IMG/VR virus record: IMGVR_UViG_3300027861_000001
Location: 62,001-126,000 of that record
Length of the DNA: 64,000 nucleotides
Source of the DNA: a virus
Strand: one strand, 5' to 3'
Shown here in pieces: positions 930 through 16,672 of the stretch. The position numbers and the translations under genes were made by a program. Position 1 is the stretch's first letter, and each line of letters starts with the position of its first letter. The notes below the pieces were generated by a model that saw only the letters and a list, made by a program, of their open reading frames with translations, was not told the origin of the DNA and made no database searches.

Positions 930-933
930 TTTG

Positions 934-2224: not shown

Positions 2225-3340
2225 CTATGTTATATCCGTATCAGTCCAATCACCAGGTGTAAACGCCGCAGAAACACCATCAGCCTCATAACTCTCATTA
2301 CTATCACCAAAATCTCTACAAAAAGTTCCATCAGGTATCCAAAGAAGGTGGTCTTTATCTGCTGTTAATGATGGGTGACCAATTTCTATAGAGCAATCTC
2401 CAGTAAATATCGGGGTTATCGGTACTTGTGTTTCTTTATAAAATCCTTCTCCTTGTACCCCTTCCCACAACTCAATATCGTTTAAACTTGCTCCGCTCAC
2501 AAGTTTTATCGGACGATCATACACAAATCTAAGGTGTGTATTTATAGCTGGTGCTGTGGTTACACCACGACCAACAGTCCAACTTGTAAGATGCGGAGGA
2601 TCAAAATATACGTCACGATGGTACATTTGAACCTCTCCAAATGTTACATAGGGTTCAAATCTAATCCATTTTCCACTACTAGTCCACGGATCACCATAAG
2701 CTGGATACTCTATTACTTCTCTTATTCCTAAAACTAAATAAATGGTCTCTGTGTAAGATTGGCTATTAAAGATTGAAAGACCAGCAGAGTTTACGTTAAA
2801 AGTAACGTGGTTGTCGTCCACATAAGAGTCTAAGTCTATATAAGTATCACAGATTAACGTTGCGTTCTGGTTTATTGTCTTAAAGTCTGCCTCACTATGA
2901 TTAATCCCAGTAACAGTGTATAATCCTAAACTACAACCAGAGAGCCAAGAATAAGCACTATCTTTTTCACCATATACTTCCACTGCTAAACTTTGCAGTT
3001 CGTTAACACCATATCTTTCTGGATAACAAGAACCGTATCCGTATCTGTCAACTCCCCAAATAGTATGGTAACAACGAGAATACTTACTATCAGCCTCAGT
3101 AGATAATTCAACCGCTCCAGCGTAATGATAAAAAGATTGATAAGAGTCATGCCAATCTCCGCCCCAAGTGAACCAATAATAACCCCACTCGGTCTCTTCC
3201 CAGTTTCCATCTGCTTGAACTAGTTGTAATAGCGTCAATGGTGATGGGTGTGGGGAAAGAGACGTATCAAAAGCAGTCTCCGCACTAAGCACAATATTAC
3301 TAGGAGAAGCATTACTTCCGGCCCATCTTTCTGTCCACAT
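2225..3340 (-). CDS. Putative virion surface protein, 371 aa
   Basis: A second large aromatic, beta-rich protein (for example GYYWFTWGGDWHDS), with repeated Trp/Tyr and acidic residues and no catalytic motif that I recognise. Composition resembles carbohydrate-binding or DNRLRE-type surface domains. Its ATG at 3340 overlaps the stop of the preceding tagged gene (TAATG). It is paired with the 272-residue gene just downstream, and the two probably form a surface complex or are paralogues in fold. No homologue is named. Confidence 0.45.
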   Translation of the reverse strand: MWTERWAGSNASPSNIVLSAETAFDTSLSPHPSPLTLLQLVQADGNWEETEWGYYWFTWGGDWHDSYQSFYHYAGAVELSTEADSKYSRCYHTIWGVDRYGYGSCYPERYGVNELQSLAVEVYGEKDSAYSWLSGCSLGLYTVTGINHSEADFKTINQNATLICDTYIDLDSYVDDNHVTFNVNSAGLSIFNSQSYTETIYLVLGIREVIEYPAYGDPWTSSGKWIRFEPYVTFGEVQMYHRDVYFDPPHLTSWTVGRGVTTAPAINTHLRFVYDRPIKLVSGASLNDIELWEGVQGEGFYKETQVPITPIFTGDCSIEIGHPSLTADKDHLLWIPDGTFCRDFGDSNESYEADGVSAAFTPGDWTDTDIT

Positions 3341-3579
3341 TAATGTTCACCTCCAGACTCTGTCCAACAACGAAATCTTTCTTCACACTTTTTACATCTT
3401 ATTTGGTTACACCCAATACCTTTGCTTCTAACAAAGTCATAATACTCGTCACACGCACCACGTTCCCTACACATTTCCCTTCTCCATTTGTTCAAAGGAA
3501 TCCAATCACACCAAGCAGTATCATAATACGTACATTTTCGTTGTATACAAAAATTATCTCTCTTTTGTTCGTCATTCAT
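3340..3579 (-). CDS. Small Cys-rich tagged protein, directly after tRNA-Pro
   Basis: A 79-residue protein. I place the start at ATG 3579, because any longer reading would be the tRNA-Pro itself. Several cysteines precede the tag CKKCEERFRCWT, which ends 6 residues before the C-terminus. The ATG begins one nucleotide after the tRNA discriminator base (A-C-ATG), so there is no room for a Shine-Dalgarno outside the tRNA acceptor stem. After RNase Z cleavage the message would be leaderless. Function unknown. Confidence 0.75.
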   Translation of the reverse strand: MNDEQKRDNFCIQRKCTYYDTAWCDWIPLNKWRREMCRERGACDEYYDFVRSKGIGCNQIRCKKCEERFRCWTESGGEH

Positions 3580-3580
3580 G

Positions 3581-3654
3581 TCGGAGCAAAAGGATTTGAA
3601 CCTTTGACTTCTGCGCCCCAAACGCAGTGCTCTACCAAACTGAGCTATACTCCG
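3581..3654 (-). tRNA. tRNA-Pro(TGG)
   Basis: Acceptor CGGAGTA/TGCTCCG pairs, with A73. Anticodon stem CTGCG/CGCAG carries loop TTTGGGG, anticodon TGG (reads CCA). CCA is not encoded. Positions 8-10 (TAG) are the stop codon of the HNH gene upstream, so tRNA and CDS overlap by 10 nt. Confidence 0.96.
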
Positions 3655-4043
3655 TCGTACCAATTAAGTTGTTTAGCAGTTCTCCTTCTGTGACAATTAG
3701 CACACAGAACTCTACACTTATTTAGTTCCCTGCTTATCTTACCCCAAGAATAATTATTTTTTACCATATTGGAAACAGTATCAAATTTATCTATGCTTGC
3801 TCTGTGGTCAAAATCTAAGACTACAAAATCACTCTCACCACAATCCTCACATGGGTGAGTTAAACAATACTCTCTTAGTTTTAGATATTTTGTAAGTCTC
3901 CTAATCTTAGCGTTTTTATTTTTTGCTTTTTTAATTTTTTCTTTATTTTTATGATAGTAATTTCTATCATACACTTGTTTGCATGATCTACAGTATGGAC
4001 TATGTTTTAATCTATTGTTTTTACCGCACTTGTAACATTCCAT
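3645..4043 (-). CDS. HNH endonuclease with zinc clusters
   Basis: A 132-residue protein. An N-terminal CYKCGKNN...YCRSC zinc knuckle is followed by a Lys-rich linker (about 30-55). Then comes an HNH core: CEDCGESDF, LDFDHR (catalytic His), a helix, and KCRVLCANCHRR. The fold is that of phage free-standing HNH nucleases, which nick or cut DNA and are often mobile. Insertion beside a tRNA fits a selfish homing enzyme, though a packaging or repair role is possible. The stop codon TAG lies at positions 8-10 of tRNA-Pro. Start ATG 4043 abuts the upstream stop. Confidence 0.8.
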   Translation of the reverse strand: MECYKCGKNNRLKHSPYCRSCKQVYDRNYYHKNKEKIKKAKNKNAKIRRLTKYLKLREYCLTHPCEDCGESDFVVLDFDHRASIDKFDTVSNMVKNNYSWGKISRELNKCRVLCANCHRRRTAKQLNWYDGV

Positions 4044-4190
4044 TTAATCAGTCCAACATCTAAATCTTTCTTTACATTTTTCGCATTTCATTCTGAAGCA
4101 AACAGCTTTTGCTGCTGGTGGTAAGTCTCTTACAGTGTCAAGTAAAGTCTTCACTAAAACAATACAGACAATAATAAATAGTAAATCCAT
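4044..4190 (-). CDS. Membrane-anchored mini-protein with terminal CxxCxxRFxCWT tag
   Basis: A 48-residue protein found by reading the gap. Residues 3-16 (LLFIIVCIVLV) form one hydrophobic helix, a short linker follows, and the protein ends in CEKCKERFRCWTD. The tag would therefore be displayed at the membrane, probably on the cytoplasmic face. This is the clearest case of the tag forming almost the entire soluble part of a protein. It ends immediately before the HNH gene start and begins after the 80-residue ORF. Confidence 0.7.
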   Translation of the reverse strand: MDLLFIIVCIVLVKTLLDTVRDLPPAAKAVCFRMKCEKCKERFRCWTD

Positions 4191-4204
4191 CTGCTGTTAT
4201 TTAC

Positions 4205-4447
4205 TTATTGATTTTTTTCTACATAATCTTGATAACTGTCGTCCAACTCAATAGCTGTTTTTGCAGCAACAATTAGGGACGCAGCAAGCACTAGTGCTTC
4301 CTCAATTGTCAAATCAAAGCTTCCTTCTCTAACATATCCATGAGTAGCTCTATTCAAATCAATAGGATTTTCATACAGCATTACTCTAGTTCCTTCTAGA
4401 ATCACTAAAACATCAGGGCCTTCCCCCCAAGTACATTCAGCTCTCAT
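4205..4447 (-). CDS. Hypothetical protein, 80 aa
   Basis: A short alpha/beta protein with the phrase DLTIEEALVLAASLI, which resembles DLTIEEALHILISAL in the small ORF at 38844-39008, so the two may share a helical motif. No catalytic residues are evident. It overlaps the upstream zinc protein by 11 nt, showing an operon. Function unknown. Confidence 0.65.
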   Translation of the reverse strand: MRAECTWGEGPDVLVILEGTRVMLYENPIDLNRATHGYVREGSFDLTIEEALVLAASLIVAAKTAIELDDSYQDYVEKNQ

Positions 4448-4769
4448 TATATGCTCTCACTTTTCTGACCCACTCTAACCATAAGCTGTCTTCTTTTTTC
4501 TCAGCAGTGTTTCTTATGGTCATTATTTCTTCTCGTATGCTCTTTCCTAAGTCCCAACACTTTTCACAACAAAAGTTTGGGTAATCACACGTAAATCTTG
4601 GGTTATCTAGGTTACAATCATAGTCAAAAAGTACAGCACAAAACGTACAAACATCAACCTTACCACACATGACACACTCTTTAACGCTTACTCCTGTGTT
4701 GTTGCTGCGTCCACAAACATCACACACAGTTTCTGTTATTGTTATACTCTCTACTTTTTCTGTTCTCAT
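4437..4769 (-). CDS. Cys-rich zinc-binding protein, 110 aa
   Basis: Four CxxC-type pairs (CDVCG, CVMCG, CTFC, CCEKC) plus single cysteines suggest two interleaved zinc sites, similar in arrangement to small RING/B-box-like or treble-clef domains. A charged helix follows. The ORF at 12294-12503 has a comparable CDDC...CMVCGKDVCYVH arrangement, so the two may be distant relatives. It sits between the ClpP-like protease and the 80-residue ORF. Function unknown. Confidence 0.7.
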   Translation of the reverse strand: MRTEKVESITITETVCDVCGRSNNTGVSVKECVMCGKVDVCTFCAVLFDYDCNLDNPRFTCDYPNFCCEKCWDLGKSIREEIMTIRNTAEKKEDSLWLEWVRKVRAYNES

Positions 4770-4774
4770 TTTAG

Positions 4775-5347
4775 TTACTCTATGTTATCAACTAAACCCA
4801 TAAATAAAGCTTGATCCGCACTCAAAAAATTAGGATGGTCTGTTTTCATTAAATTATACCAATAGTCAGCCTTGTGATATTGTTCCTCGTCTGAAGTATT
4901 TTTTTCTGCATACACCTGAGCCGATTGAGTTGTTAACCCTTTCATGTACTCCATATATTCTTCGCTCCCCTTCATGTCTGTCTCCTGTGCAGAACGCATA
5001 CCGTGAACCATTAACCAAGAATGTTCACTAACTACTCTTTCATCGCACGTTTGAAGAATATCTAACATCATACTCATTGCGTGTCCATATACTTTACCAA
5101 CCACTCTAACACCTTTTGATTGAGCATATCTAATAGAAGCTACTATACCCAAGCCTGACTCCACATCTCCGCCAGGAGAATTCATTACTATAGTAATGTC
5201 ATTACATGCAACATCTACTTTGTTCGCTAATAGTAGAATATCTTGTGTTGCTATGGTTGCCATTACTGAGTCTACGTGTCCGGTTAGTACTATTATTCCT
5301 TGGTCACGAAGAAGTTTTCTCTCTTTGTCTTTTTCCTCAAATATCAT
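4775..5347 (-). CDS. ClpP-like serine protease
   Basis: A 190-residue protein with the ClpP/crotonase fold. NSPGG at 56-60 forms the oxyanion region. GHAMSMM contains the nucleophile Ser92 and VHG supplies His115; a late Asp is near the end (GLVDN). Length matches free ClpP. In phages such proteases usually mature the capsid, but this gene is far from the head module and lies among tRNA-region genes. A regulatory role in degrading host or phage proteins, or an interaction with host Clp ATPases, is therefore equally likely. A Shine-Dalgarno (AGGAG) precedes ATG 5347. Confidence 0.8.
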   Translation of the reverse strand: MIFEEKDKERKLLRDQGIIVLTGHVDSVMATIATQDILLLANKVDVACNDITIVMNSPGGDVESGLGIVASIRYAQSKGVRVVGKVYGHAMSMMLDILQTCDERVVSEHSWLMVHGMRSAQETDMKGSEEYMEYMKGLTTQSAQVYAEKNTSDEEQYHKADYWYNLMKTDHPNFLSADQALFMGLVDNIE

Positions 5348-5370
5348 TTACGATCTCCTACAAATTAATA

Positions 5371-5643
5371 CTAAACACACCACCCACAACAACCAAATGA
5401 GACTTTCTCTGCTACTTTCTCAGCAATTTCATTATATTCGTTTATAGTTATACCATATTTGGTTAACACATCTTCGCTAGTTGGTTTAATGTCTGCCCGC
5501 ATGTCACCACAAGCATAATCTTCAGCAAGATGAGGAGCGTGATCATACTGGTCTACAAAGTCATCCATGTCTGCATTAATGTTATTTATACTAAATTTAC
5601 GCAATGCACAAAGAGCACTATAACTTTCTATCTTCAATTTCAT
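5371..5643 (-). CDS. Hypothetical protein, 90 aa
   Basis: Contains an acidic central part (NINADMDDFVDQYDHAPH), a helical C-terminal half, and ends in GCCGWCV, where three cysteines could bind metal or form a thiol site. Start ATG 5643 follows AGGAGATCAAG. No recognised family. It lies between the tagged ORF and the ClpP-like gene. Confidence 0.6.
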   Translation of the reverse strand: MKLKIESYSALCALRKFSINNINADMDDFVDQYDHAPHLAEDYACGDMRADIKPTSEDVLTKYGITINEYNEIAEKVAEKVSFGCCGWCV

Positions 5644-5652
5644 CTTGATCTC

Positions 5653-5880
5653 CTATTCAGTATAACATTCAAACCTTACTTTACAATTATTACATTCTGA
5701 CATATCGAATTTTTTATTGTTTGTACACCAAATCCACGCACCGACGTTGTTCTTACATTTTGGACATGTGGTACAATACTTATCTACCCAAAACACATCT
5801 AAATAATCTTCATACGACAAAGGAAAACCACACTTTGGACAAGTTGCAAAAGCATATTTTTCCAACTTTTCCCTATCCAT
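5653..5880 (-). CDS. Zinc-ribbon protein with terminal tag, directly after tRNA-Glu
   Basis: A 75-residue protein. CPKCGFPLSYEDY and CTTCPKCKNNVG form a two-knuckle zinc ribbon, and the protein ends CNNCKVRFECYTE, the shared tag with Tyr in place of Trp. Its ATG at 5880 starts one nucleotide after the discriminator base of tRNA-Glu (A-C-ATG), with no independent Shine-Dalgarno. tRNA processing would leave a leaderless mRNA. Function unknown. Confidence 0.75.
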   Translation of the reverse strand: MDREKLEKYAFATCPKCGFPLSYEDYLDVFWVDKYCTTCPKCKNNVGAWIWCTNNKKFDMSECNNCKVRFECYTE

Positions 5881-5881
5881 G

Positions 5882-5954
5882 TAGTGCTAGGGGGAGTCGA
5901 ACCCACCGTTAGTAGGTTGAAAGCCTACTGTCATAACCGTTAGACCATAGCACC
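5882..5954 (-). tRNA. tRNA-Glu(TTC)
   Basis: Acceptor GGTGCTA/TAGCACT pairs with a terminal G-T wobble. Anticodon stem GTAGG/CCTAC has loop CTTTCAA, anticodon TTC (reads GAA). CCA is not encoded. First of four tandem tRNAs (5882-6206) read downstream from Leu(CAA). Confidence 0.96.
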
Positions 5955-5960
5955 TAGTTG

Positions 5961-6043
5961 TGGTAGCGGTAGGACTCGAACCCACGTAGCCCGTCGGGCG
6001 TCTGATCTACAGTCAGATGCAATTGCCACTCTGCCACACTACC
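5961..6043 (-). tRNA. tRNA-Tyr(GTA)
   Basis: Acceptor GGTAGTG/CGCTACC pairs. Anticodon stem TCTGA/TCAGA with loop CTGTAGA gives GTA. The long variable arm (CGCCCGACGGGC) is the bacterial class II type, as expected for Tyr. A73, CCA not encoded. Confidence 0.96.
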
Positions 6044-6049
6044 TTTTTG

Positions 6050-6123
6050 TACCAACGGATGGACTCGAACCATCACTAATCCAATTTTAAGTCGGACGCC
6101 TCTGCCAATTGGGCTACGCTGGC
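6050..6123 (-). tRNA. tRNA-Leu(TAA) with short variable loop
   Basis: Acceptor GCCAGCG/CGTTGGT pairs with wobbles. Anticodon stem TCCGA/TTGGA with loop CTTAAAA gives TAA (reads UUA). The D arm (3-bp stem, loop CAATTGGCAGA) is leucine-type, but the variable loop is only TTAGT (5 nt) instead of a long arm. Confidence 0.9.
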
Positions 6124-6129
6124 TTATGT

Positions 6130-6206
6130 TGGTGTCAGTGGAAGGAGTCGAACCTTCAACATTTCGGGTTTGAGCCGAACACCTCTACCAATTGGGTTAC
6201 ACTGAC
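6130..6206 (-). tRNA. tRNA-Leu(CAA) with short variable loop, CCA encoded
   Basis: Acceptor GTCAGTG/CACTGAC pairs perfectly, A73 followed by an encoded CCA. Anticodon stem TTCGG/CCGAA with loop CTCAAAC gives CAA (reads UUG). The variable loop is 5 nt (ATGTT). Positions 8-10 (TAA) are the stop codon of the CDS 6197-6598. Confidence 0.92.
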
Positions 6207-6598
6207 TCGTCTAATTCATCATCATCTTCCGACATAATGCAATGCCCTGGACAATCTTCGGGGTTTTTCCCCATCCACTTTTCCACTGCTAGTATTCTAT
6301 CTTCTCCAAAAACGGTAAAGTTATATAATCCTGCAATCATAAGGAGATTTCCTAATCCTTTACCTTCTCCTCGTCTTTCTTCGTCTACTAATTCAAATAA
6401 GAGGTCTTCTGGAATTACTAACATATTACCACTTAACGCACCTCTCAACCACAACACCTCTGCCTTATCAGTCAAATAAAGATCACTATTGTCGTAATCT
6501 TTTTCTATATATCTTTCGTCAATTGGTAACTCTCCTTCTTTATAAAACGTTTGATCGCTATATATCTGCTTCCTCAGTTCGTCAAGAAAATCATCCAT
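6197..6598 (-). CDS. Hypothetical acidic protein, 133 aa, stop inside tRNA-Leu
   Basis: I chose ATG 6598 because TTTAGGAGGTTTTCA precedes it; a longer reading would run through tRNA-Trp. The protein has a helical N-terminus (MDDFLDELRKQIY), a hydrophobic middle (GLGNLLMIAGLYNFTVFG) and a very acidic C-terminus (EDDDELDESV). The last codons GAG TCA GTG TAA are the 5' acceptor strand of tRNA-Leu(CAA); the stop is tRNA positions 8-10. RNase P cleavage would leave this mRNA without a stop codon. Function unknown. Confidence 0.75.
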   Translation of the reverse strand: MDDFLDELRKQIYSDQTFYKEGELPIDERYIEKDYDNSDLYLTDKAEVLWLRGALSGNMLVIPEDLLFELVDEERRGEGKGLGNLLMIAGLYNFTVFGEDRILAVEKWMGKNPEDCPGHCIMSEDDDELDESV

Positions 6599-6619
6599 TG
6601 AAAACCTCCTAAATTTATG

Positions 6620-6690
6620 CACACCCATAAGGATTCGAACCCCAAGTTGGTGGGCTGGAGCCACCCGTGTTACCGTTACACTATGGATGC
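6620..6690 (-). tRNA. tRNA-Trp(CCA)
   Basis: Acceptor GCATCCA/TGGGTGT pairs with wobbles, discriminator G73 as in bacterial tRNA-Trp. Anticodon stem GGTGG/CCACC with loop CTCCAGC gives CCA (reads UGG). Not a UGA suppressor. Confidence 0.95.
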
Positions 6691-6694
6691 ATAT

Positions 6695-7018
6695 TTATGT
6701 TTTATTTCTCCACTCATCATCAAAATAATCCATCAATTCGGAAATTGTTGCTGTACTAACATCACTCAACGAGGTAGGTAAATTATTGGCGGTCATAATT
6801 TTAACCCACTTGTCGTGCCCTTTTTGTGCTGCTGCTTTTGTATCATACATTTCAACTATTACCCAATCACCATCACTATACCTTGGATGTTTTACTCCAG
6901 TTTCGTAAGGTTGTCTAGAGTCTGTTACTTTACACGTGTCTACTACTAAGTCTCCATCTTTGTAATTGTCCACCACTCTTTGCTCATAAGTACCCACCAT
7001 ATCAAAATAGTCAAACAT
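6695..7018 (-). CDS. Hypothetical protein, 107 aa
   Basis: An alpha/beta protein with a beta segment (GDWVIVEMYDTK) followed by a helix (KAAAQKGHDKWVKIMTANNLP). This resembles small phage proteins in which a strand is followed by 'AAxxGHxxWV' (modification/uptake helpers of unknown role). ATG 7018 is preceded by GGGAGGGAAGG. The gene ends 4 nt before tRNA-Trp. Function unknown. Confidence 0.7.
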   Translation of the reverse strand: MFDYFDMVGTYEQRVVDNYKDGDLVVDTCKVTDSRQPYETGVKHPRYSDGDWVIVEMYDTKAAAQKGHDKWVKIMTANNLPTSLSDVSTATISELMDYFDDEWRNKT

Positions 7019-7042
7019 CCTTCCCTCCCAAATTTATTTCCG

Positions 7043-7113
7043 CGCCGTGTAGGGGTATCGATCCCCTGCTCCCACCTTGACAGGATGGCGTTCTACCTTT
7101 AAACTAACACGAC
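7043..7113 (-). tRNA. tRNA-Asp(GTC)
   Basis: Acceptor GTCGTGT/ACACGGC pairs, G73 as usual for Asp. Anticodon stem CCATC/GGTGG with loop CTGTCAA gives GTC. T loop ATCGATA. CCA not encoded. A 47-nt spacer with no recognised element separates it from the ORF upstream. Confidence 0.94.
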
Positions 7114-7160
7114 TTTCTTAGAATAAACGTTTCACCTAGCTACTGCGTTTACTCTCATTC

Positions 7161-7457
7161 TTACAAATTATACTTCTCCAAAAATTCAATAAGCTTTGGT
7201 ACATCTTCGTCTCTTAAAATAAAGTCTCCTACTTGTCCATCACGCCCGCGCAGTGCACTCCAAGCTTGTTTTATCCTCCACTTTAAGTCTGCCTTACCAG
7301 CTAAATACATATTAAAATAAATGTGTGACCTTTCTCTACCGTCTCGTTCTTTACCATCGTATATCTCTACTTCTACATCCATTGAATGTTCTTGTGCCAT
7401 ACAATCACAAGGGAACCTCACAACGTCATAATCATTACTACAGTAAATTTGTTCCAT
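7161..7457 (-). CDS. Hypothetical protein, 98 aa
   Basis: Starts with a Cys/acidic strand (VVRFPCDCMAQEHSMDVEVE) followed by beta strands and a C-terminal helix ending EFLEKYNL. The arrangement resembles small phage proteins of the kind found beside replication accessory genes (beta sheet plus HLWKRIKQAWxxLRG-type helix; here RIKQAWSALRG), but I cannot assign a family. ATG 7457 follows AAAGGAGAAAG. Confidence 0.65.
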   Translation of the reverse strand: MEQIYCSNDYDVVRFPCDCMAQEHSMDVEVEIYDGKERDGRERSHIYFNMYLAGKADLKWRIKQAWSALRGRDGQVGDFILRDEDVPKLIEFLEKYNL

Positions 7458-7486
7458 CTTTCTCCTTTATGTATTTCTTTAACAAA

Positions 7487-7591
7487 TCAAGTTACAGCGT
7501 ACTCCACAAGAATGCGTATTTCATCGGTTGTAAACTCACAACCTAGTGTACAAGTGTTATCTTCATTCTCTATTATTTCATTTATTTCCAC
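7487..7591 (-). CDS. Mini-protein with GTG start, 34 aa
   Basis: GTG at 7591 is preceded by AAAAGGAGTAGTTACA, a good ribosome site, and the frame runs 34 codons: an acidic start (EINEIIENED), then CTLGCEF and a short helix. The two cysteines four apart resemble half of a zinc site. Evidence is the ribosome site and the fit between neighbouring genes. Function unknown. Confidence 0.45.
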   Translation of the reverse strand: MEINEIIENEDNTCTLGCEFTTDEIRILVEYAVT

Positions 7592-7618
7592 TGTAACTAC
7601 TCCTTTTACTTAATATGA

Positions 7619-7846
7619 CTAAACATAATCCCACGATTTAGTCCAACACTCAAATCTTTCTTTACAAAAGTTACATTTCCTATCGTCTACTAACCTTCTT
7701 CTACACTGCCTAAAGTAAGCATCATTACCAAAAATTTGTGCTTTCATTTCTTCCCACATTTCTAATGTGAGTGCATCATCTGTTGGGCCTAGCTTTTCCC
7801 CATACACCTTTTCAAAGATTTCTTTGGTTACTACTTCTCTATCCAT
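7619..7846 (-). CDS. Small tagged protein downstream of tRNA-Cys
   Basis: A 75-residue helical protein. Its C-terminal part CNFCKERFECWTKSWDYV contains the shared tag, with an extra Cys 13 residues earlier that could be the fourth metal ligand. ATG 7846 begins 13 nt after the 3' end of tRNA-Cys with AAGGATTGATGA as the only possible ribosome site. The N-terminal 45 residues have no resemblance to the other tagged proteins. Function unknown. Confidence 0.75.
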   Translation of the reverse strand: MDREVVTKEIFEKVYGEKLGPTDDALTLEMWEEMKAQIFGNDAYFRQCRRRLVDDRKCNFCKERFECWTKSWDYV

Positions 7847-7859
7847 TCATCAATCCTTG

Positions 7860-7930
7860 AGGTAGTGGAGAGAATCGAACTCCCTTGCCTTGGGTTGCAA
7901 CCAAGTACCTAGCCAGTCGGACACACTACC
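7860..7930 (-). tRNA. tRNA-Cys(GCA)
   Basis: Acceptor GGTAGTG/CACTACC pairs perfectly, U73 typical of Cys. Anticodon stem CTTGG/CCAAG with loop TTGCAAC gives GCA. Its first G is also the last base of the TAG stop of the upstream ORF (1-nt overlap). Confidence 0.95.
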
Positions 7931-8343
7931 TAATCCCACAAATGTTGGTAATACTTACCAAACAGCTCTACTCCGGTTTGAATTCTAAGTTCAACAGCTT
8001 TTAAACCTTCACTATCTACGTCTATGCCTGTAGACACTAATCTATTCCCTTCTGTTACCATATCACCAACAACTGTGTAAAACTCATCCTCCCAATCTCT
8101 ATCTCTGATGTGGTTGAAGCACCAAATCATTTCATTCAAGGCTTCTATCCAACCTTCAAAAGTTCCAAAATCGCTAGGATACCCATGTGTTGTATCTCTT
8201 AACTGCTCCAACATAGGAACTATTATTTCAGCCAAAGTAGCGTCCATGCTCCATGTGTCTTCTGGACTCAGCTCTACTACTATGTCTCTTACACCACCTT
8301 CGTCTGGATACTCTCCCATTTCTACTTTCATTTTATTTTCCAC
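7930..8343 (-). CDS. Hypothetical helical protein, 137 aa
   Basis: Predicted to be mostly helical, with several Trp and acidic residues. The phrase LSPEDTWSMDATLAEIIVPMLEQLRDTTHGYP resembles uncharacterised phage proteins with a conserved Asp/His/Pro segment; I know no function for them. It overlaps the start of the YopX-like gene's stop by 11 nt. The TAG stop shares one base with tRNA-Cys. Confidence 0.7.
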   Translation of the reverse strand: MENKMKVEMGEYPDEGGVRDIVVELSPEDTWSMDATLAEIIVPMLEQLRDTTHGYPSDFGTFEGWIEALNEMIWCFNHIRDRDWEDEFYTVVGDMVTEGNRLVSTGIDVDSEGLKAVELRIQTGVELFGKYYQHLWD

Positions 8344-8695
8344 CTATCATTTCAGGATTTTCACAAACATTACCGATTATTGTGATAGCAAACCCAGCTC
8401 TAATACTGTCAGAAACCCACGCTAGGTTAAATCCACAACTTTCATCCCACCATTTGACAACGTGTTCATACTTATAACCTTCTCTTTGTAATATGTCACC
8501 GTTGTATATTTCTACTCCATTTCTATCTTTAAGACCGGTGTACTCTCCAACTGTTTCAGGGTCTACGGGAACAGCACCCTTATAATGGTCATAAATGTAC
8601 GTTACAGGGCCTTCTTCTTCTGATGTTGTAAAATATCCACCATATACCCACTTACCTGTTTTTAGGCACTTACCCCTGAATTTAATTTCTTTCAT
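8333..8695 (-). CDS. YopX family protein
   Basis: A 120-residue protein. Start ATG 8695 follows AAAGGATAGAT; a longer reading would enter tRNA-Met. The N-terminus KEIKFRGKCLKTGKWVYGGY and the central VGEYTGLKDRNGVEIYNGDI are diagnostic of the YopX family, a beta-rich phage protein of unknown function that is common in Gram-positive phages and prophages. No enzymatic residue is known. It is coupled to the helical ORF downstream. Confidence 0.9.
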   Translation of the reverse strand: MKEIKFRGKCLKTGKWVYGGYFTTSEEEGPVTYIYDHYKGAVPVDPETVGEYTGLKDRNGVEIYNGDILQREGYKYEHVVKWWDESCGFNLAWVSDSIRAGFAITIIGNVCENPEMIGGK

Positions 8696-8707
8696 ATCTA
8701 TCCTTTG

Positions 8708-8780
8708 TGGACTCGGTACGACTCGAACGTACAACTTACTGCTTATGAGGCAGTTGCTCTAACCCTTGAACTACGAGTCC
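8708..8780 (-). tRNA. tRNA-Met(CAT), elongator type or Ile2
   Basis: Acceptor GGACTCG/CGAGTCC is perfect, A73. Anticodon stem ACTGC/GCAGT with loop CTCATAA gives CAT. It lacks initiator features (1-72 pairs; no GGG/CCC in the anticodon stem). Whether C34 becomes lysidine (Ile, AUA) cannot be told. Positions 8-10 (TAG) are the stop of the DUF2283 gene. Confidence 0.93.
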
Positions 8781-8938
8781 TTAATTTCTGAAACATTAAG
8801 TAATTCTATTCCGACTATACCACCGTCTTCATCAATATCTATTATAATGTCTTCAGTTATCTCTGTAGTCCTAGCTATTTCTTTGTCCGATACATAGACA
8901 TAAGCCGCTTCTGCTAATTTATCATATACTATTTTCAT
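8771..8938 (-). CDS. DUF2283 protein, stop inside tRNA-Met
   Basis: A 55-residue protein. The start MKIVYDK at 8938 overlaps the upstream stop (ATGA). The pattern of an N-terminal YD, AAYVYVSD, TTEITEDIIIDIDEDGGIVGIELL matches DUF2283, a small beta-alpha-beta family of unknown role seen in bacteria, archaea and phages. The last codons GAC TCG TAG coincide with the first ten bases of tRNA-Met, so stop and tRNA positions 8-10 are the same bases. Confidence 0.85.
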   Translation of the reverse strand: MKIVYDKLAEAAYVYVSDKEIARTTEITEDIIIDIDEDGGIVGIELLNVSEIKDS

Positions 8939-9165
8939 TCTTTTGTCCAACATTTGAATCTAAGTTCACATTTACTACATTTGGTTTCATCTCGTTCTTT
9001 GTATTTACTACAATAAAAAGGACAACGAGACTGATTAGTGGAATAAATGTTTTTATCTAGCTCATAACAATACCCCAACCAGCGTGATATATACGACGAA
9101 ATTTTTCTAGGTGCTGGGTCTAGTTTTCTACAATCACCACATTGATTCCATATTTTTTCAACCAT
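8935..9165 (-). CDS. Small Cys-rich protein with terminal tag, directly after tRNA-Lys
   Basis: A 76-residue protein. An N-terminal CGDCRKLDPAPRK and later CPFYC suggest a zinc knuckle, and it ends with CSKCELRFKCWTKE. ATG 9165 starts one nucleotide after the discriminator of tRNA-Lys (A-C-ATG), and no purine-rich ribosome site is visible in the tRNA acceptor strand. Its stop overlaps the DUF2283 start. Function unknown. Confidence 0.75.
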   Translation of the reverse strand: MVEKIWNQCGDCRKLDPAPRKISSYISRWLGYCYELDKNIYSTNQSRCPFYCSKYKERDETKCSKCELRFKCWTKE

Positions 9166-9166
9166 G

Positions 9167-9240
9167 TAGACGTAGAGAGACTCGAACTCCCAACTCCCAG
9201 TTTAAAAGACTGGTACTCTACCCAGTTGAGTTATACGTCC
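9167..9240 (-). tRNA. tRNA-Lys(TTT)
   Basis: Acceptor GGACGTA/TACGTCT pairs with a terminal G-T wobble, A73. Anticodon stem CCAGT/ACTGG with loop CTTTTAA gives TTT. CCA not encoded; the 3' end is followed by CATGG, the start of a tagged ORF. Confidence 0.96.
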
Positions 9241-9249
9241 TTAATTTCT

Positions 9250-9405
9250 TTATTTAGTCCAGCATTTGAATCTTTTTATACAAGTATCGCAACCATTAAG
9301 ATTACTGTCAAGAATTGTACGACAAATACTTATAAAGCGGTCATCCATTTCTGCTTTTTGTTTATAATACAAAGCTAAATACTGAAGTTTTTCTTCTTTA
9401 GTCAT
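9250..9405 (-). CDS. Mini-protein with terminal tag, downstream of tRNA-Leu(TAG)
   Basis: A 51-residue protein. A charged helix (TKEEKLQYLALYYKQKAEMDDRF) leads to a single Cys and then the terminal CDTCIKRFKCWTK. It starts 11 nt after tRNA-Leu(TAG), with GAGGAACAAA as ribosome site, and ends 9 nt before tRNA-Lys. It is a minimal version of the tagged proteins: one helix plus the tag. Function unknown. Confidence 0.7.
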   Translation of the reverse strand: MTKEEKLQYLALYYKQKAEMDDRFISICRTILDSNLNGCDTCIKRFKCWTK

Positions 9406-9416
9406 TTTGTTCCTCG

Positions 9417-9490
9417 TACTAGCGGGAAGAGTCGAACTTCCAACACCTTGCTTCTAAGGCAAGTGCCTCTACCAATTGGGCTACGCTAGC
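9417..9490 (-). tRNA. tRNA-Leu(TAG) with short variable loop
   Basis: Acceptor GCTAGCG/CGCTAGT pairs with one wobble, A73. Anticodon stem CTTGC/GCAAG with loop CTTAGAA gives TAG (reads CUA). D arm is leucine-type (GCC/GGC around CAATTGGTAGA) but the variable loop is GTGTT only. Positions 8-10 (TAG) are the stop of the NADAR gene. Confidence 0.92.
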
Positions 9491-9948
9491 TCGCTTCTTA
9501 CCTTCATTAAAATTCTACCTAGTTTATTCTTTCCTTTTCCTTTACGCCTTACACGTTTTTCTCCAATGTATACGTAGCGAGGTGGAGGAGATACACCCCA
9601 AAACGTGTCTTTCCACCAGTTCCCTTCGTATAACCTTGCGTTACCTGTTTCCAGTAACCTTTCCTTTAAATAGGAATGATTAGTAAACTTTTGAGTAACT
9701 AAATCAGACATAACCAATAACTTAATTTCTTCCCAATCTGATCTTAACAAAACAGTTTTACCAACCTTCTTTGCTTTAGAAGCAGACTCGCAATTAAGTA
9801 TCTTTTCTCTTTCTTCCAAATCCAAAGTTTTGGCTGCTTGGTATGCATGTTCTACTGATGGATAGTTTACTCCATCTAACGTAACAACTGTTGACCAAAA
9901 ATTAGATAAAAATCTATGTTTTCCTACAAACTCTGTGATATCTTCCAT
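9481..9948 (-). CDS. NADAR domain protein (YbiA-like N-glycosidase), stop inside tRNA-Leu
   Basis: A 155-residue protein. FLSNFW (about 13-18), YPSVEHAYQAAK (29-40), the central Lys-rich helix and NWWKDTFWGV near 109-118 are the conserved blocks of NADAR/YbiA (DUF1768). The family includes a glycosidase acting on damaged riboflavin intermediates and enzymes that remove ADP-ribose from guanine in nucleic acids, reversing DarT-type modification. A counter-defence role is therefore plausible here but is inference. The stop TAG is at positions 8-10 of tRNA-Leu(TAG). Confidence 0.9.
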   Translation of the reverse strand: MEDITEFVGKHRFLSNFWSTVVTLDGVNYPSVEHAYQAAKTLDLEEREKILNCESASKAKKVGKTVLLRSDWEEIKLLVMSDLVTQKFTNHSYLKERLLETGNARLYEGNWWKDTFWGVSPPPRYVYIGEKRVRRKGKGKNKLGRILMKVRSELA

Positions 9949-10158
9949 TTATAAAGTCTCTCCATTAACTAGTGGTAAATACTTGGCTGCATCTTCAATG
10001 TCTACTACTGGTCTGAGTAACACGTCAATTGTATAAGAATCAAACTTGAGTGAGTAACCTCTTACACATTTTTTATCGTGCCACATAACTCTGTGTATTT
10101 TAGCATCTACTTTAACTGGGTTATTATTTTTATCATATATACTATATACAGCTTGCAT
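9949..10158 (-). CDS. Hypothetical protein, 69 aa
   Basis: Start MQAVYSIYDK at 10158 follows AAAGGAGAATT. It is a beta-rich protein (VYSIYDKNNNPVKVDAKIHR, YSLKFDSYTIDVLL) without motifs, likely a small barrel. It begins soon after tRNA-Arg(TCG) and its stop abuts the NADAR start, so they form one unit. Function unknown. Confidence 0.65.
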   Translation of the reverse strand: MQAVYSIYDKNNNPVKVDAKIHRVMWHDKKCVRGYSLKFDSYTIDVLLRPVVDIEDAAKYLPLVNGETL

Positions 10159-10176
10159 AATTCTCCTTTCTTTCTG

Positions 10177-10251
10177 CATCCTCGGAGAGACTCGAACTCT
10201 CAGCCTTTGGTTTCGAAGACCACTGCTCTAAATCCATTGAGCTACGAGGAT
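10177..10251 (-). tRNA. tRNA-Arg(TCG)
   Basis: Acceptor ATCCTCG/CGAGGAT is perfect, G73. The anticodon arm TGGT/ACCA with loop CTTCGAA gives TCG (reads CGA and other CGN by wobble). One G-A mismatch at 27-43. CCA not encoded. Confidence 0.93.
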
Positions 10252-10259
10252 TCCTATGT

Positions 10260-10418
10260 CTATTTTCTACGTACTTGTTTACTGCTATGTGGTTTTTGTG
10301 AACCTTTACCGTGACTGTAGGAACGTCCAGCTTTATTCTTTCTTGCCATCCAAGCACTACGAGAACGAACTTCGCTTCCATTTTTACAGTAAGGACAACC
10401 ACATTTCGTGTTGAACAT
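10260..10418 (-). CDS. Basic mini-protein with CxxC start, 52 aa
   Basis: ATG 10418 is preceded by AGGAGGTGACAC, an ideal ribosome site. The protein begins MFNTKCGCPYCKNGSE and continues with a Ser/Lys/Arg-rich, disordered tail. It may bind RNA or ribosomes; that is inference from charge. A longer overlapping reading in another frame lacks a ribosome site and crosses tRNA-Arg, so I reject it. Confidence 0.65.
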   Translation of the reverse strand: MFNTKCGCPYCKNGSEVRSRSAWMARKNKAGRSYSHGKGSQKPHSSKQVRRK

Positions 10419-10428
10419 GTGTCACCTC

Positions 10429-10443
10429 CTAGTGCGCCATCAT
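10429..10443 (-). promoter_or_regulatory. Four-codon mini-ORF between two perfect ribosome sites
   Basis: TTTAGGAGGTGGAAC precedes ATG ATG GCG CAC TAG. The TAG is itself the start of the next Shine-Dalgarno (TAGGAGGTGAC) for the 52-residue ORF. It could be a leader that positions re-initiating ribosomes or a remnant of a lost gene. Confidence 0.35.
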
Positions 10444-10473
10444 GTTCCACCTCCTAAAAATTTAATATCCACT

Positions 10474-10551
10474 TTACCTTCTCCTAAAGAACCAATATAG
10501 GAACCCTAGTAGTGAGAGTAGTAAAGCACCAATTCCAATTACTTTTTTCAT
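10474..10551 (-). CDS. Single-TM mini-protein, 25 aa
   Basis: The sequence is one hydrophobic helix (VIGIGALLLSLLGFLYWFF) flanked by KK and a C-terminal RRR. ATG 10551 is one base after the upstream stop (TAAAATG). It looks like a small membrane peptide. A holin-like or membrane-stress effect is possible but unsupported. Confidence 0.5.
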   Translation of the reverse strand: MKKVIGIGALLLSLLGFLYWFFRRR

Positions 10552-10552
10552 T

Positions 10553-10714
10553 TTACATATCTTCAACTTGTTCTACTCTCCATGAGTTACCACACTCAGG
10601 ACAGATAACTTGGTCAGACGCTAACAATAATAAAGCACACTGGTGAAGACAATCATGATGATTATAGTCCTCAATACAATCATGAAATTCACCGCACCGA
10701 CATTTTTCTTCCAT
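10553..10714 (-). CDS. Cys/His-rich mini-protein, 53 aa
   Basis: The N-terminal CRCGEFHDC and HHDCLHQC segments and a C-terminal CPECGNSW provide enough Cys/His for two metal sites. ATG 10714 directly follows the stop of the kinase-like gene (1-nt gap), so it is coupled to it. Not part of the CWT-tag family. Function unknown. Confidence 0.6.
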   Translation of the reverse strand: MEEKCRCGEFHDCIEDYNHHDCLHQCALLLLASDQVICPECGNSWRVEQVEDM

Positions 10715-10715
10715 C

Positions 10716-11429
10716 TTAACTCCCCCATCGACTTTGAGACTCCACCAAAATTCTTCCTTCTATGATAAAATCTTCCAAGTCATTTTCCACTAACCATTCC
10801 TTAATCCGAAGCATTCTTTGTTTTCTGTCAGTTTCTTCAACAAGAATAGCATCCCCCGAATCAACGTGTTTCTTTCCAAGTGCCAAGAACTCGTCCCTAA
10901 CTGTGCTTAAATAGTTAAAGTTCATCTCACACCACTTAGCTTTCTCCCCTTTGTCCCATCTCTCTTTTATTCTCTCGATATTCCAATCAAGTGGTGGTAA
11001 AAGAATGACAAACTTCTTTGGTTGTGGAGTATTTGATTTCTTATAAAGGTCTTTTGTCATCTTTACGATATTCTTATACTCTTTCTTTGATAACCAACCT
11101 AACTTTTCAAACGCTGACATATAAACAAGGTCATCAAAGCAACATCTGTCTCCAATAACGACAGAACTATCCGATTGAGTTTGAACGTATGCTAGATTTT
11201 CTCTATGTTCAACGCAATGAAGACCCATTCTCCATACCTGCCTAGTTACTTCATCATCTATGCTTTCCATATGAGCAATTTGCTCATTTACTTTGTGTGG
11301 GTCATATGCTTTCAAATCCTCAATTAGTGTAGACTTCCCAACACCATGAGGGCCACACAAATACAAAACCCTGTTGTTATCTTCAGTATTAAATATGTAC
11401 GGGTCTGGTGGAAACATTACCGGTGTCAT
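10716..11429 (-). CDS. P-loop nucleoside/nucleotide kinase-like protein
   Basis: A 237-residue protein. Walker A GPHGVGKST at 26-34, a GDRCCFDD segment (DR-type motif of deoxynucleoside/thymidylate kinases), and an Arg-rich lid region (NIERIKERWDKGEKAKW) point to the NMP-kinase fold. Substrate cannot be deduced; AAA_28-type or RNA 5'-kinase relatives are alternatives. The ATG overlaps the upstream stop (ATGA). Confidence 0.75.
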   Translation of the reverse strand: MTPVMFPPDPYIFNTEDNNRVLYLCGPHGVGKSTLIEDLKAYDPHKVNEQIAHMESIDDEVTRQVWRMGLHCVEHRENLAYVQTQSDSSVVIGDRCCFDDLVYMSAFEKLGWLSKKEYKNIVKMTKDLYKKSNTPQPKKFVILLPPLDWNIERIKERWDKGEKAKWCEMNFNYLSTVRDEFLALGKKHVDSGDAILVEETDRKQRMLRIKEWLVENDLEDFIIEGRILVESQSRWGS

Positions 11430-11746
11430 ATGAACTTCCTCACTTTGTTAAAGTTTATTTGCACTTTCTTGTTTCGGCTTGTATCCTCCCTGATACTCAC
11501 CTTAATAGTTGGTGTTAAGTAATTCGCAACTATTTCTGCACTTAAGTTATTACCGTTTTTCAAATTTAAATCTTTGAGATTTATAACCAGTGCTTCATCG
11601 CTAGTAAAACATTCGTAACGATGAGTACAATCGCTACAAACTTCTTCAGCATTTTTAGCTCCATGACAGTAAAATTCTTTTCTCCAGTTGTCAGTACGAC
11701 TAGTGTCTTTTACGAGGATTGTTTTCAATTTCTCCCTTCCTTTCAT
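11426..11746 (-). CDS. Tagged protein with internal CxxCxxRYxCFT
   Basis: A 106-residue protein. The tag CSDCTHRYECFT is near residues 37-48, not terminal; a hydrophobic/beta C-terminal domain follows (LSAEIVANYLTPTIKVSI). It overlaps the preceding tagged gene by 47 nt, so two tagged proteins are translated from interleaved frames. Internal placement shows the tag is a mobile domain rather than a fixed terminus. Function unknown. Confidence 0.7.
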   Translation of the reverse strand: MKGREKLKTILVKDTSRTDNWRKEFYCHGAKNAEEVCSDCTHRYECFTSDEALVINLKDLNLKNGNNLSAEIVANYLTPTIKVSIREDTSRNKKVQINFNKVRKFI

Positions 11747-11984
11747 GACAATCTAATATTGTACCTGTATAACATGTAAAACGATTAGGACACACTTCAC
11801 AACTTTCTATTCTAAGTAAACTTTCAGAAGGATAAGTTAGAGTAGTGCGATATGAGTTTAAAGGATAAACATAATAATTGTTATAATTTTTTTCTCCGAT
11901 TATAAGCCCCATATCCCCAGCGTGTGAGCTTTGATACCCATGTGTATCTATAATCATTACTACATCATTCTTTTTTAATTCCAT
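11700..11984 (-). CDS. Small beta-barrel-like tagged protein after tRNA-Arg(TCT)
   Basis: A 94-residue protein. The N-terminal half (KKNDVVMIIDTHGYQSSHAG, DMGLIIGEKNYNNYYVYPL) looks like an SH3/KOW-type barrel. The tag CEVCPNRFTCYTG lies at about 62-74 and is followed by a charged tail. ATG 11984 lies 7 nt after the 3' end of tRNA-Arg(TCT). A KOW-like barrel could bind RNA or a ribosome/RNA polymerase partner; that is inference. Confidence 0.7.
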   Translation of the reverse strand: MELKKNDVVMIIDTHGYQSSHAGDMGLIIGEKNYNNYYVYPLNSYRTTLTYPSESLLRIESCEVCPNRFTCYTGTILDCHERKGEIENNPRKRH

Positions 11985-11991
11985 CTCTACG

Positions 11992-12067
11992 CGCCCCTGG
12001 AGGGACTCGAACCCCCGACGGTCTGCTTAGAAGGCAGATGCTCTGAATCCAACTGAGCTACAGGAGC
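11992..12067 (-). tRNA. tRNA-Arg(TCT)
   Basis: Acceptor GCTCCTG/CAGGGGC pairs with one wobble, G73. Anticodon stem TCTGC/GCAGA with loop CTTCTAA gives TCT (reads AGA). CCA not encoded. Confidence 0.96.
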
Positions 12068-12099
12068 ACAATGCAGACTAAGTGGGCAGAAAAGTTAAC

Positions 12100-12231
12100 T
12101 TAGCAGTTACCCTTTCCTCCACCTTTTCTAGGCCCAATTCCAGGGCCGCTTCTGTTTCCTCCTCCTCTTCCTCTTCCATCTCTCGGACCTCTTGAACCTT
12201 TCGTAGGCCCTGTTCCATCTCTTCCTGGCAT
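12100..12231 (-). CDS. DUF5320-like Gly-rich mini-protein, 43 aa
   Basis: The start MPGRDGTGPTKG at 12231 follows ACAGGAGGAACTAAG. The Gly/Pro/Arg repeats (GPRDGRGRGGG, GPGIGPRKGGGKGNC) match the DUF5320 pattern MPGxDxTGPxGxGPxTGRGxGxC found beside metal- and redox-linked genes in anaerobes. Function unknown. The presence in a phage suggests acquisition from such a host, but the repeat-rich sequence makes similarity easy to over-read. Confidence 0.65.
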   Translation of the reverse strand: MPGRDGTGPTKGSRGPRDGRGRGGGNRSGPGIGPRKGGGKGNC

Positions 12232-12293
12232 CTTAGTTCCTCCTGTAAAAAATAGATAATGGATAATTCCAATATCTTTCAACACAAATTAAT

Positions 12294-12503
12294 CTACACT
12301 TGGTTATTACTGTCTACTAACATTTGTATACAATATCTACATAAAACTAAGACAGGTAATTTATCATTTGTATAATTATAATATTTTATCGCGTGTACAT
12401 AACACACGTCTTTTCCGCACACCATGCAAATTTCTTTCCCTTCAAACTGATCATCCTCACAATCATCACAAATCACTTTTTCTTTTGTAATAAACTTCTT
12501 CAT
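12294..12503 (-). CDS. Cys-rich zinc protein, 69 aa
   Basis: Start MKKFITKEK at 12503 overlaps the stop of the upstream tagged gene (TAATG). Cysteine pairs CDDC, CMVCGKDVCYVH and CRYC can make two cross-braced zinc sites like a short B-box or treble clef. It resembles the 110-residue protein at 4437-4769. Function unknown. Confidence 0.65.
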   Translation of the reverse strand: MKKFITKEKVICDDCEDDQFEGKEICMVCGKDVCYVHAIKYYNYTNDKLPVLVLCRYCIQMLVDSNNQV

Positions 12504-12754
12504 TAAACCCCTGATGTTATGCACTTAAACCTGTGTTCGCAAAAACCGCATTTAGGATATGTACCAGCTGGTTGTTTGTATCTTTCTCTATGAATAACAC
12601 ACAAGATTCGCATCTTATTACGACAATTAGTACAATGCACTAATACTGCGTAACCGCTGGTATCTCTACAAAACCTATTTCTAGTAATTATGTTGCAATT
12701 TAAACATTGAAACAACGCACTATCATACGACCAATTAAATTCGTTATATTTCAT
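12503..12754 (-). CDS. Zinc-finger protein with terminal tag, after tRNA-Ser(GCT)
   Basis: An 83-residue protein. CLNCN and CTNCRNKMRILC give one zinc site, then a helix and the terminal CGFCEHRFKCITSGV (tag with Ile in place of Trp). ATG 12754 starts 11 nt beyond tRNA-Ser(GCT). It is coupled by TAATG to the Cys-rich ORF downstream. Function unknown. Confidence 0.72.
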   Translation of the reverse strand: MKYNEFNWSYDSALFQCLNCNIITRNRFCRDTSGYAVLVHCTNCRNKMRILCVIHRERYKQPAGTYPKCGFCEHRFKCITSGV

Positions 12755-12765
12755 TTAAACTTTTG

Positions 12766-12850
12766 CGGAAGCAACAGGATTCGAACCTGTGAGGCTTTTA
12801 CACCTAGTTAGTTAGCAACCAACCTCCTTAAACCACTCGGACATACTTCC
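12766..12850 (-). tRNA. tRNA-Ser(GCT)
   Basis: Acceptor GGAAGTA/TGCTTCC pairs, G73. Anticodon stem GTTGG/CTAAC with loop TTGCTAA gives GCT (reads AGC/AGU). A long variable arm is present (class II). Confidence 0.95.
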
Positions 12851-12854
12851 AATG

Positions 12855-12926
12855 TGGAGCAGGAGAGATTTGAACTCTCTTTTCCAGTGTGCAAGACTGG
12901 TGTTTTCCCAAGTAAACTACAACCCC
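12855..12926 (-). tRNA. tRNA-Ala(TGC)
   Basis: Acceptor GGGGTTG/CTGCTCC contains G3-U70, the alanine identity pair, and one T-T mismatch at 6-67. Anticodon stem CCAGT/ACTGG with loop CTTGCAC gives TGC (reads GCA). A73. The mismatch is tolerable. Confidence 0.92.
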
Positions 12927-12929
12927 TAA

Positions 12930-13277
12930 TTACACCTTTAACAAACTAAAAAACGGTATTATAATAGCGTTTGGTAAAGCTGCCTTCATATTATTTACTC
13001 CTGCTGGATTCATACTGTGCAAAAATATTGCTGGTGGTTGTTTGTTAGGATGTCGTTCCAACCACTTTGCTACTTCGTAACCTGACTTTTCATCTGATGG
13101 ACAAAACGCTTCACCACCAAGGTCATGATCTAACCATAAACTGTCCCACACTCCCTCGGTAAGTTTAAGGATACAATCATCCACCGTTTCCACACAAACT
13201 ATTTTTTCTTCGCTGAACTTTCTTTTAAAGTAAGTGTGCCTAGTTGTATCATCATCTAAAACAAGAATTCTTTCCAT
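12930..13277 (-). CDS. Cyclic-phosphate processing receiver domain protein
   Basis: A 115-residue protein. Start MERILVLDDDTTRH at 13277 has an AGAGGTAATC ribosome site. An N-terminal LDDD, a Lys/Arg-rich helix, WDSLWLDHDLGGEAF and a late FLHSMNP segment match the cpREC receiver-like family, predicted to process cyclic phosphates formed in RNA repair or ADP-ribose metabolism. It lacks the usual Thr/Lys of signalling receivers, so it is unlikely to be a response regulator. It lies between tRNA-Val and tRNA-Ala. Confidence 0.75.
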   Translation of the reverse strand: MERILVLDDDTTRHTYFKRKFSEEKIVCVETVDDCILKLTEGVWDSLWLDHDLGGEAFCPSDEKSGYEVAKWLERHPNKQPPAIFLHSMNPAGVNNMKAALPNAIIIPFFSLLKV

Positions 13278-13288
13278 GATTACCTCTG

Positions 13289-13360
13289 TAGGAACGGTAG
13301 GAATCGAACCTACAACTTCCGGTATGTAACACCGAAGCTCTACCACTGAGCTACCGAGGC
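13289..13360 (-). tRNA. tRNA-Val(TAC) with mispaired acceptor stem
   Basis: Anticodon stem TCGGT/ACCGG with loop GTTACAT gives TAC (reads GUA). D arm GCTC/GAGC and T arm GTAGG/CCTAC are intact. But the 5' strand GCCTCGG and 3' strand CGTTCCT pair at one or two positions only. Positions 8-10 (TAG) end the CDS 13351-13548. It may be a chimeric or decayed gene. Confidence 0.75.
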
Positions 13361-13548
13361 TTATCTTTCTTTAGTATTTCTAAATCTTCTGGTCTACAAG
13401 CTGCTGAAGTATCACCATTTCCAAAGTTAACAAATACATACCAGTCATTCTTACTAGTTACTACTCCATGTTCAACATCTTTGAATGAACTTGCATGCTG
13501 TGGAATATACATAACCCTATCTCCAGCATCAAAACCTTCTGTTTCCAT
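13351..13548 (-). CDS. Small beta-barrel-like protein, 65 aa, stop inside tRNA-Val
   Basis: ATG 13548 (METEGFDAGDRVMYI) follows AGAGGATGATATT and starts shortly after tRNA-Asn. The sequence looks like a small SH3/KOW-type barrel (GDRVMYIPQHA, HGVVTSKNDWYVFVNFGNGD). The last codons CCT CGG TAG are the 5' acceptor strand of tRNA-Val, and the stop coincides with tRNA positions 8-10. Here the ORF end and the tRNA acceptor are in conflict, since the acceptor does not pair. Confidence 0.72.
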   Translation of the reverse strand: METEGFDAGDRVMYIPQHASSFKDVEHGVVTSKNDWYVFVNFGNGDTSAACRPEDLEILKKDKPR

Positions 13549-13560
13549 AATATCATCCTC

Positions 13561-13635
13561 TGGCACCTACGGTTGGATTCGAACCAACATGTCACCGGTT
13601 AACAGCCGGACGCTTTACCCATTAGCTACATAGGT
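13561..13635 (-). tRNA. tRNA-Asn(GTT), CCA encoded
   Basis: Acceptor ACCTATG/CGTAGGT pairs with one wobble, G73 and encoded CCA. Anticodon stem CCGG/CCGG with loop CTGTTAA gives GTT. It is the first transcribed unit after the promoter at 13663-13691. Confidence 0.95.
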
Positions 13636-16597: not shown

Positions 16598-16672
16598 TAG
16601 TAGGAAGTGGACTCGAACCACTGAATCACGAGCTTATCAGACCCGTCGCTTAACCAACTTGCGTATCCTACA
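16598..16672 (-). tRNA. tRNA-Ile(GAT)
   Basis: Anticodon stem CGGGT/GCTCG with loop CTGATAA gives GAT. Acceptor positions 2-7 GTAGGA/TCCTAC pair; 1-72 is a T-T opposition, A73. The 3-bp D stem CGC/GCG is intact. The upstream MTase-like stop TAG lies at tRNA positions 3-5, a 5-nt overlap. Confidence 0.88.

Follow-up and report, generated by a model that had tools for sequence, protein, structure and literature searches.

Five genes of a tRNA-rich phage take their stop codon from the tRNA that follows them, each ending exactly at tRNA nucleotides 8-10 (U8-A9-R10). This overlap recurs in unrelated phages and is not unique to the genome studied here, and stops at nt 8-10 are preferred over stops lying deeper within tRNAs. 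We regard this as a real and general packing rule; a regulatory switch at these sites is not demonstrated.

The window analysed is a stretch of 64,000 nt comprising bases 62001-126000 of a 149,053-base virus record (G000). ARAGORN called 22 tRNAs, all on the minus strand and within window positions 282-19004, and Infernal added a 23rd, a Val-like element of which only the core was matched (13354-13296). Spacers of 0-12 nt or overlaps are numerous at the tRNA/gene borders of this array, on both sides of the tRNAs, and overlaps of a few bases are frequent at its gene-gene borders. Because promoter-like and terminator-like sites showed no excess over shuffled sequence, the transcript borders could not be inferred. 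Most of the window tRNAs (16/22 by our own count) carry CA rather than CCA after the discriminator, and CCA is encoded by many tRNAs of the related phages.

Genes that end inside tRNAs

Of the 22 called tRNAs, 14 hold a stop codon at nt 8-10. The first-pass annotation had reported that five minus-strand genes stop there, each overlapping its tRNA by 10 nt, and a frame-by-frame check agreed with this: all five use the frame in which the codons are tRNA nt 2-4, 5-7 and 8-10. These genes and their tRNAs, together with two further genes whose stops would also be lost by an RNase P cut, are as follows.

3645..4043, minus strand: HNH endonuclease gene (phrog_2255, E 6.7e-27); stop TAG 3647-3645 at nt 8-10 of tRNA-Pro
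3580..3654, minus strand: tRNA-Pro (TGG); 5′ end overlapped by 10 nt, acceptor stem 7/7 paired
6197..6598, minus strand: orphan gene, 133 aa from ATG, AGGAGG site before the ATG; stop TAA 6199-6197 at nt 8-10 of tRNA-Leu-CAA
6130..6206, minus strand: tRNA-Leu (CAA); overlapped by 10 nt, acceptor stem 7/7 paired
8771..8953, minus strand: DUF2283 gene (PF10049, E 2.2e-15); stop TAG 8773-8771 at nt 8-10 of tRNA-Met
8707..8780, minus strand: tRNA-Met (CAT); overlapped by 10 nt, acceptor stem 7/7 paired
9481..9948, minus strand: NADAR gene (PF08719, E 5.1e-28); stop TAG 9483-9481 at nt 8-10 of tRNA-Leu-TAG
9416..9490, minus strand: tRNA-Leu (TAG); overlapped by 10 nt, acceptor stem 7/7 paired counting G-U
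13351..13548, minus strand: 65-aa gene, phrog_18065; stop TAG 13353-13351 at nt 8-10 of the Val-like element
13286..13360, minus strand: tRNA-Val-like element; core intact, acceptor stem unpaired
7930..8331, minus strand: gene whose TAG uses G1 of tRNA-Cys (7859-7930)
16668..17240, minus strand: DNA methyltransferase gene (phrog_757), between tRNA-Met and tRNA-Ile

Four of the five overlapping genes are members of known families (HNH, DUF2283, NADAR and phrog_18065), and the orphan at 6197-6598 has no relative yet a good codon-use score; there is no evident common function among them. The C-terminal residues at the five overlaps, which would be foreign to the proteins under the packing reading given below, are GV, SV, DS, LA and PR, and the paired acceptor stem is kept in every overlapped tRNA except the Val element. 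The methyltransferase gene starts at nt 76 of tRNA-Met and stops at nt 3-5 of tRNA-Ile, so that in total seven window genes have a stop partly or wholly within a tRNA. At other tRNAs of the array, the upstream stop lies 1-5 nt outside the tRNA.

The proposal that an upstream mRNA would lose its stop if RNase P cut at nt 1 of the tRNA follows from this geometry and was upheld. Such a cut would remove the last two codons and the stop, as had been stated, and it would also take one base of the preceding codon.

The fifth site requires a correction: the TAG does stand at nt 8-10, but the element is not the normal tRNA-Val that had been assumed, and ARAGORN makes no call there. The Infernal match is limited to model positions 7-64. 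The element keeps intact D, anticodon and T arms, but GCCTCGG, the seven bases that precede U8, does not pair with the 3′ strand CGTTCCT; the tRNA-Val genes of the related phages have paired acceptor stems. A shifted 3′ partner for the 5′ strand was tried and gave no convincing acceptor pairing. The element is probably a decayed or recombined tRNA. In the simplest reading, an upstream gene was fused to the tRNA around position 7/8, and the fusion ruined the tRNA but preserved its stop. With no acceptor stem able to pair, this element is unlikely to be cut by RNase P in the normal way.

Recurrence of the overlap and probable turnover of its gene partners

Because the stop codon stands at nt 8-10, a gene that enters such a tRNA in the corresponding frame must end there, and one third of the entering genes are expected to do so. 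We surveyed 229 phage loci and 111 cellular loci, with genes predicted by a simple codon-use caller and tRNAs by ARAGORN. The phage loci contained 1298 tRNAs, and for 195 of them the end of an upstream gene fell in the range -60 to +75. Among these 195 genes, 38 ended anywhere within the tRNA and 16 ended at nt 8-10, which is by far the commonest position for a stop inside a tRNA (16/38). When the tRNA holds a stop at nt 8-10, 16 of the 24 genes entering it end there, as do 7/11 in the relatives of the window phage and 5/5 in the window itself, where none runs deeper. Pooled, 23/35 genes end at nt 8-10 without the window genome (p = 9e-5) and 28/40 with its five genes (p = 2e-6), although the survey entries are partly non-independent and the preference could stem in part from the simple gene caller. 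The window is richer than other phages in such ends (5/14 compared with 16/195, Fisher p = 0.007). In the cellular loci, genes are seldom near tRNAs (16/292) and one ends at nt 8-10; in the annotated phages P59 and Wakanda, the stretches inspected contained no overlap between a CDS and a tRNA.

Relatives of the window phage were reached only by means of a DNA pattern for a cysteine motif described below. Searching IMG/VR with one protein at a time (polymerase, RecA-like protein or 6197 protein) returned no usable relatives. When known phages were searched by BLAST, the DNA matches were confined to short tRNA stretches and the polymerase matches stayed below about 31% identity. The polymerases of G001, G002, G005 and G006 are 50-55% identical to that of the window phage; G004 seems near-identical to G002 in the tRNA array and was not counted separately, and G007 is a fragment without the polymerase whose core genes are up to 59% identical. 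The relatives carry 26-35 tRNAs each, adjoining a conserved gene block (window 14046-16323).

Comparison with these relatives showed that the gene/tRNA pairs are poorly conserved, contrary to what a conserved switch would predict. In the array stretches compared, tblastn recovered homologues of neither the 6197 nor the DUF2283 gene and matched the HNH gene only partially (in G002); searches of five relatives for the window NADAR and Val-side genes, run without a positive control, came back empty. Other genes end at nt 8-10 in the relatives, namely at Lys and Trp in G002, Leu-TAA and Pro in G006, and Pro and Trp in G007, and by eye they include HNH-like, phosphatase-like and HAD-like genes. The tRNA-Pro is overlapped at nt 8-10 by differing genes in 3/6 genomes. 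Because the position recurs while the genes change, the pattern fits a tRNA that supplies a stop to any gene landing upstream of it.

The NADAR gene allowed the overlap to be followed beyond the relatives. Its family match reaches residue 154 of 155, so the natural gene end lies inside the overlap; the family-typical C-terminal E-L is encoded by two pre-tRNA bases and tRNA nt 1-4. For 74 of 80 NADAR homologues on other viral contigs, the gene ends with no tRNA next to it. This outcome, which the first-pass annotation had itself named as refuting, speaks mostly against a conserved switch, as the reading frame is kept without the overlap. The six tRNA-adjacent homologues stop at -3, 8, 16, 22, 23 and 23 relative to tRNAs for Gly, Val, Val, Leu, Ser and Ser, respectively, and the sole case with a stop at nt 8-10 is L035 (tRNA-Val, TAA). 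Considered as a possible functional link, the position of NADAR directly upstream of a tRNA is only weakly enriched in unrelated phages relative to other genes (6/27 loci, p = 0.018; L020, L026, L035, L044, L050 and L084).

A separate feature of this genome is the motif CxxCxx(R/K)(F/Y)xC(W)T, found in 63 otherwise dissimilar reading frames of the complete record. It lies at most four residues from the C-terminus in 39/63 and near the N-terminus in 7/63; examples are 3340-3579, 4044-4190, 5653-5880, 8935-9165 and 9250-9405 in the window, and L004 4974-15333. A stricter DNA pattern gave 37 matches in G000 and 4-10 per record in six related records, its reversed control gave zero, and the motif was absent from 2.87 Mb of survey phage loci and 0.87 Mb of cellular loci. 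The members tested had no Pfam or PHROG match. The motif looks like a metal-binding mini-domain, or a tag, that numerous small proteins share, and these proteins may be a more unusual feature of the genome than the tRNA overlaps. By eye, the window also contains a primase-like gene (29985-32021) with an apparent intein, the insert running from about CFDKSSLILTREG to VNGVLVHNC, and a radical-SAM-like gene (CLHSCKYC; 62397-63707) adjoining sugar epimerase-like and glycosyltransferase-like genes.

Packing, punctuation or switch

The reading we favour, with a probability of about 0.7, is that a turnover-prone gene/tRNA array is packed seam-tight and the upstream gene obtains its stop from the tRNA; U8-A9-R10 is best read as the first stop available in a compact array. 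The geometry, its recurrence, the preference for nt 8-10 and the poor conservation of the pairs are shown by the sequences; the steps that follow are ones that we infer. The tRNAs and small accessory genes would be swapped repeatedly at their borders, and a gene without its own stop would survive most easily when its frame meets U8-A9-R10, at the price of two or three foreign C-terminal residues. Gene and tRNA would be transcribed jointly, and a ribosome on the precursor RNA would melt the acceptor stem, terminate at the UAR and depart, whereupon the tRNA would refold and be excised later by RNase P and a 3′ processing enzyme. Excision would end the use of that molecule as mRNA for the upstream gene, and the leftover non-stop fragment would pass to ordinary ribosome rescue and decay; a dedicated switch would be unnecessary.

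The packing reading may extend to the 3′ side of the tRNAs. In the relatives, 30/48 downstream genes start with an ATG placed at nt 73-79 of the tRNA, and the A of CCA is often part of this ATG; window genes start at these positions after Pro, Glu, Met (17242), Thr and Lys. They include three that encode cysteine-motif proteins.

3340..3579, minus strand: 79-aa Cys-motif protein; ATG one base past the tRNA-Pro discriminator, no Shine-Dalgarno
5653..5880, minus strand: 75-aa Cys-motif protein; ATG one base past the tRNA-Glu (5881-5954) discriminator
8935..9165, minus strand: 76-aa Cys-motif protein; ATG one base past the tRNA-Lys (9166-9240) discriminator

In the window genome and its relatives, a Shine-Dalgarno-like site precedes 0/17 genes at tRNA 3′ ends compared with 133/284 others, although this lack is partly forced, the upstream bases being tRNA; window genes that start farther from a tRNA have such a site in 7/7 cases. 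Messages beginning at tRNA 3′ ends would be leaderless after 3′ processing, and these starts suggest a mitochondria-like punctuation by tRNAs. The gene at 12930-13277 also points this way, but as a single instance: its homologue comes immediately after tRNA-Asn in two of the relatives and after tRNA-Met in a third, while in the window, where the Val element before it is decayed, the gene has an AGAGG site. We hold it possible, if tentatively, that tRNA excision also yields leaderless mRNAs for the genes at tRNA 3′ ends, the 5′ overlap being a tolerated cost. It appears rather doubtful that in this phage lineage excision has both effects in a mitochondria-like manner, ending upstream expression by removal of the stop and freeing a leaderless downstream mRNA. 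As a separate observation, this gene encodes a small receiver-like protein (homologues in L558, L561, L562 and L564) and lies directly after a tRNA in every genome examined, the tRNA itself varying (Val remnant, Asn or Met).

An RNase P-dependent switch, in which processing and translation compete and tRNA maturation silences the upstream gene through a non-stop mRNA, is improbable. It shares the stop-inside-tRNA geometry with the packing reading, and the enrichment of overlaps in the window genome could hint at a function, as could the use of the tRNA-Pro site by differing genes, but the packing rule accounts for the recurrence at tRNA-Pro as well. The pairs and their overlap would be expected to persist among relatives under a switch, and in the relatives and array stretches compared they do not; the overlapping genes are functionally mixed, RNase P is unlikely to accept the Val element as a normal substrate, and other tRNAs of the same array have the upstream stop just outside. 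The first-pass annotation held that one transcript can give either the tRNA or the protein, not both; this was too strong, because a ribosome may read a molecule before it is processed, which yields both products. Pure chance, with overlapping frames happening upon the universal U8-A9-R10 without preference, would explain one frame in three since most tRNAs hold the stop, but it is disfavoured by the pooled counts given above and by proteins of known families that extend near the overlap, and we give it little credence.

Comparison with known systems

The packing rule is simple and can be applied to any tRNA-rich phage: the tRNA supplies a stop at U8-A9-R10, which is favoured over deeper ones. 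A gene that ends inside a tRNA is easy to mis-call, and in this arrangement the termination of translation and the maturation of the tRNA share ten nucleotides. Together, the 5′ stops and 3′ starts raise the testable question of whether some phages punctuate their messages by tRNAs, as mitochondria do. Our literature search, conducted mostly without subscription journals, returned mitochondrial parallels and no phage paper on the stop at nt 8-10, and such a paper may still exist.

Stop/start overlaps of a few nucleotides between phage or bacterial genes arise from compaction. The tRNA overlaps resemble them in being short and compaction-derived, and many borders of the window array are of this kind; unlike in gene-gene overlaps, one of the two partners is a structured RNA, which has to be excised from the transcript. 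Bacteria also have mRNA-tRNA cotranscripts that are processed by RNase P, such as secG-leuU of E. coli, in which, as here, the tRNA lies downstream of a gene and is matured from the same RNA; to our knowledge, the stop in cotranscripts of that type is outside the tRNA.

A further parallel involves mitochondria. In the mouse, the annotated stops of nad1 and nad2 overlap the downstream tRNA by 2 bp, and the authors of that study, referring to RNA data from a related rodent, argue that overlaps of this kind would be at odds with tRNA punctuation (PMC4624183). As in mitochondrial punctuation, the phage genes abut tRNAs on both sides and their stops can enter the next tRNA, and excision would truncate the upstream mRNA in the phage array too. 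A mitochondrial-type arrangement in which tRNA excision spares the upstream frame does not hold in the window, where seven genes would be truncated. Unlike in mitochondria, where the overlap is 2 bp and polyadenylation can complete stops, the phage overlap spans 10 nt and contains a full stop codon at U8-A9-R10.
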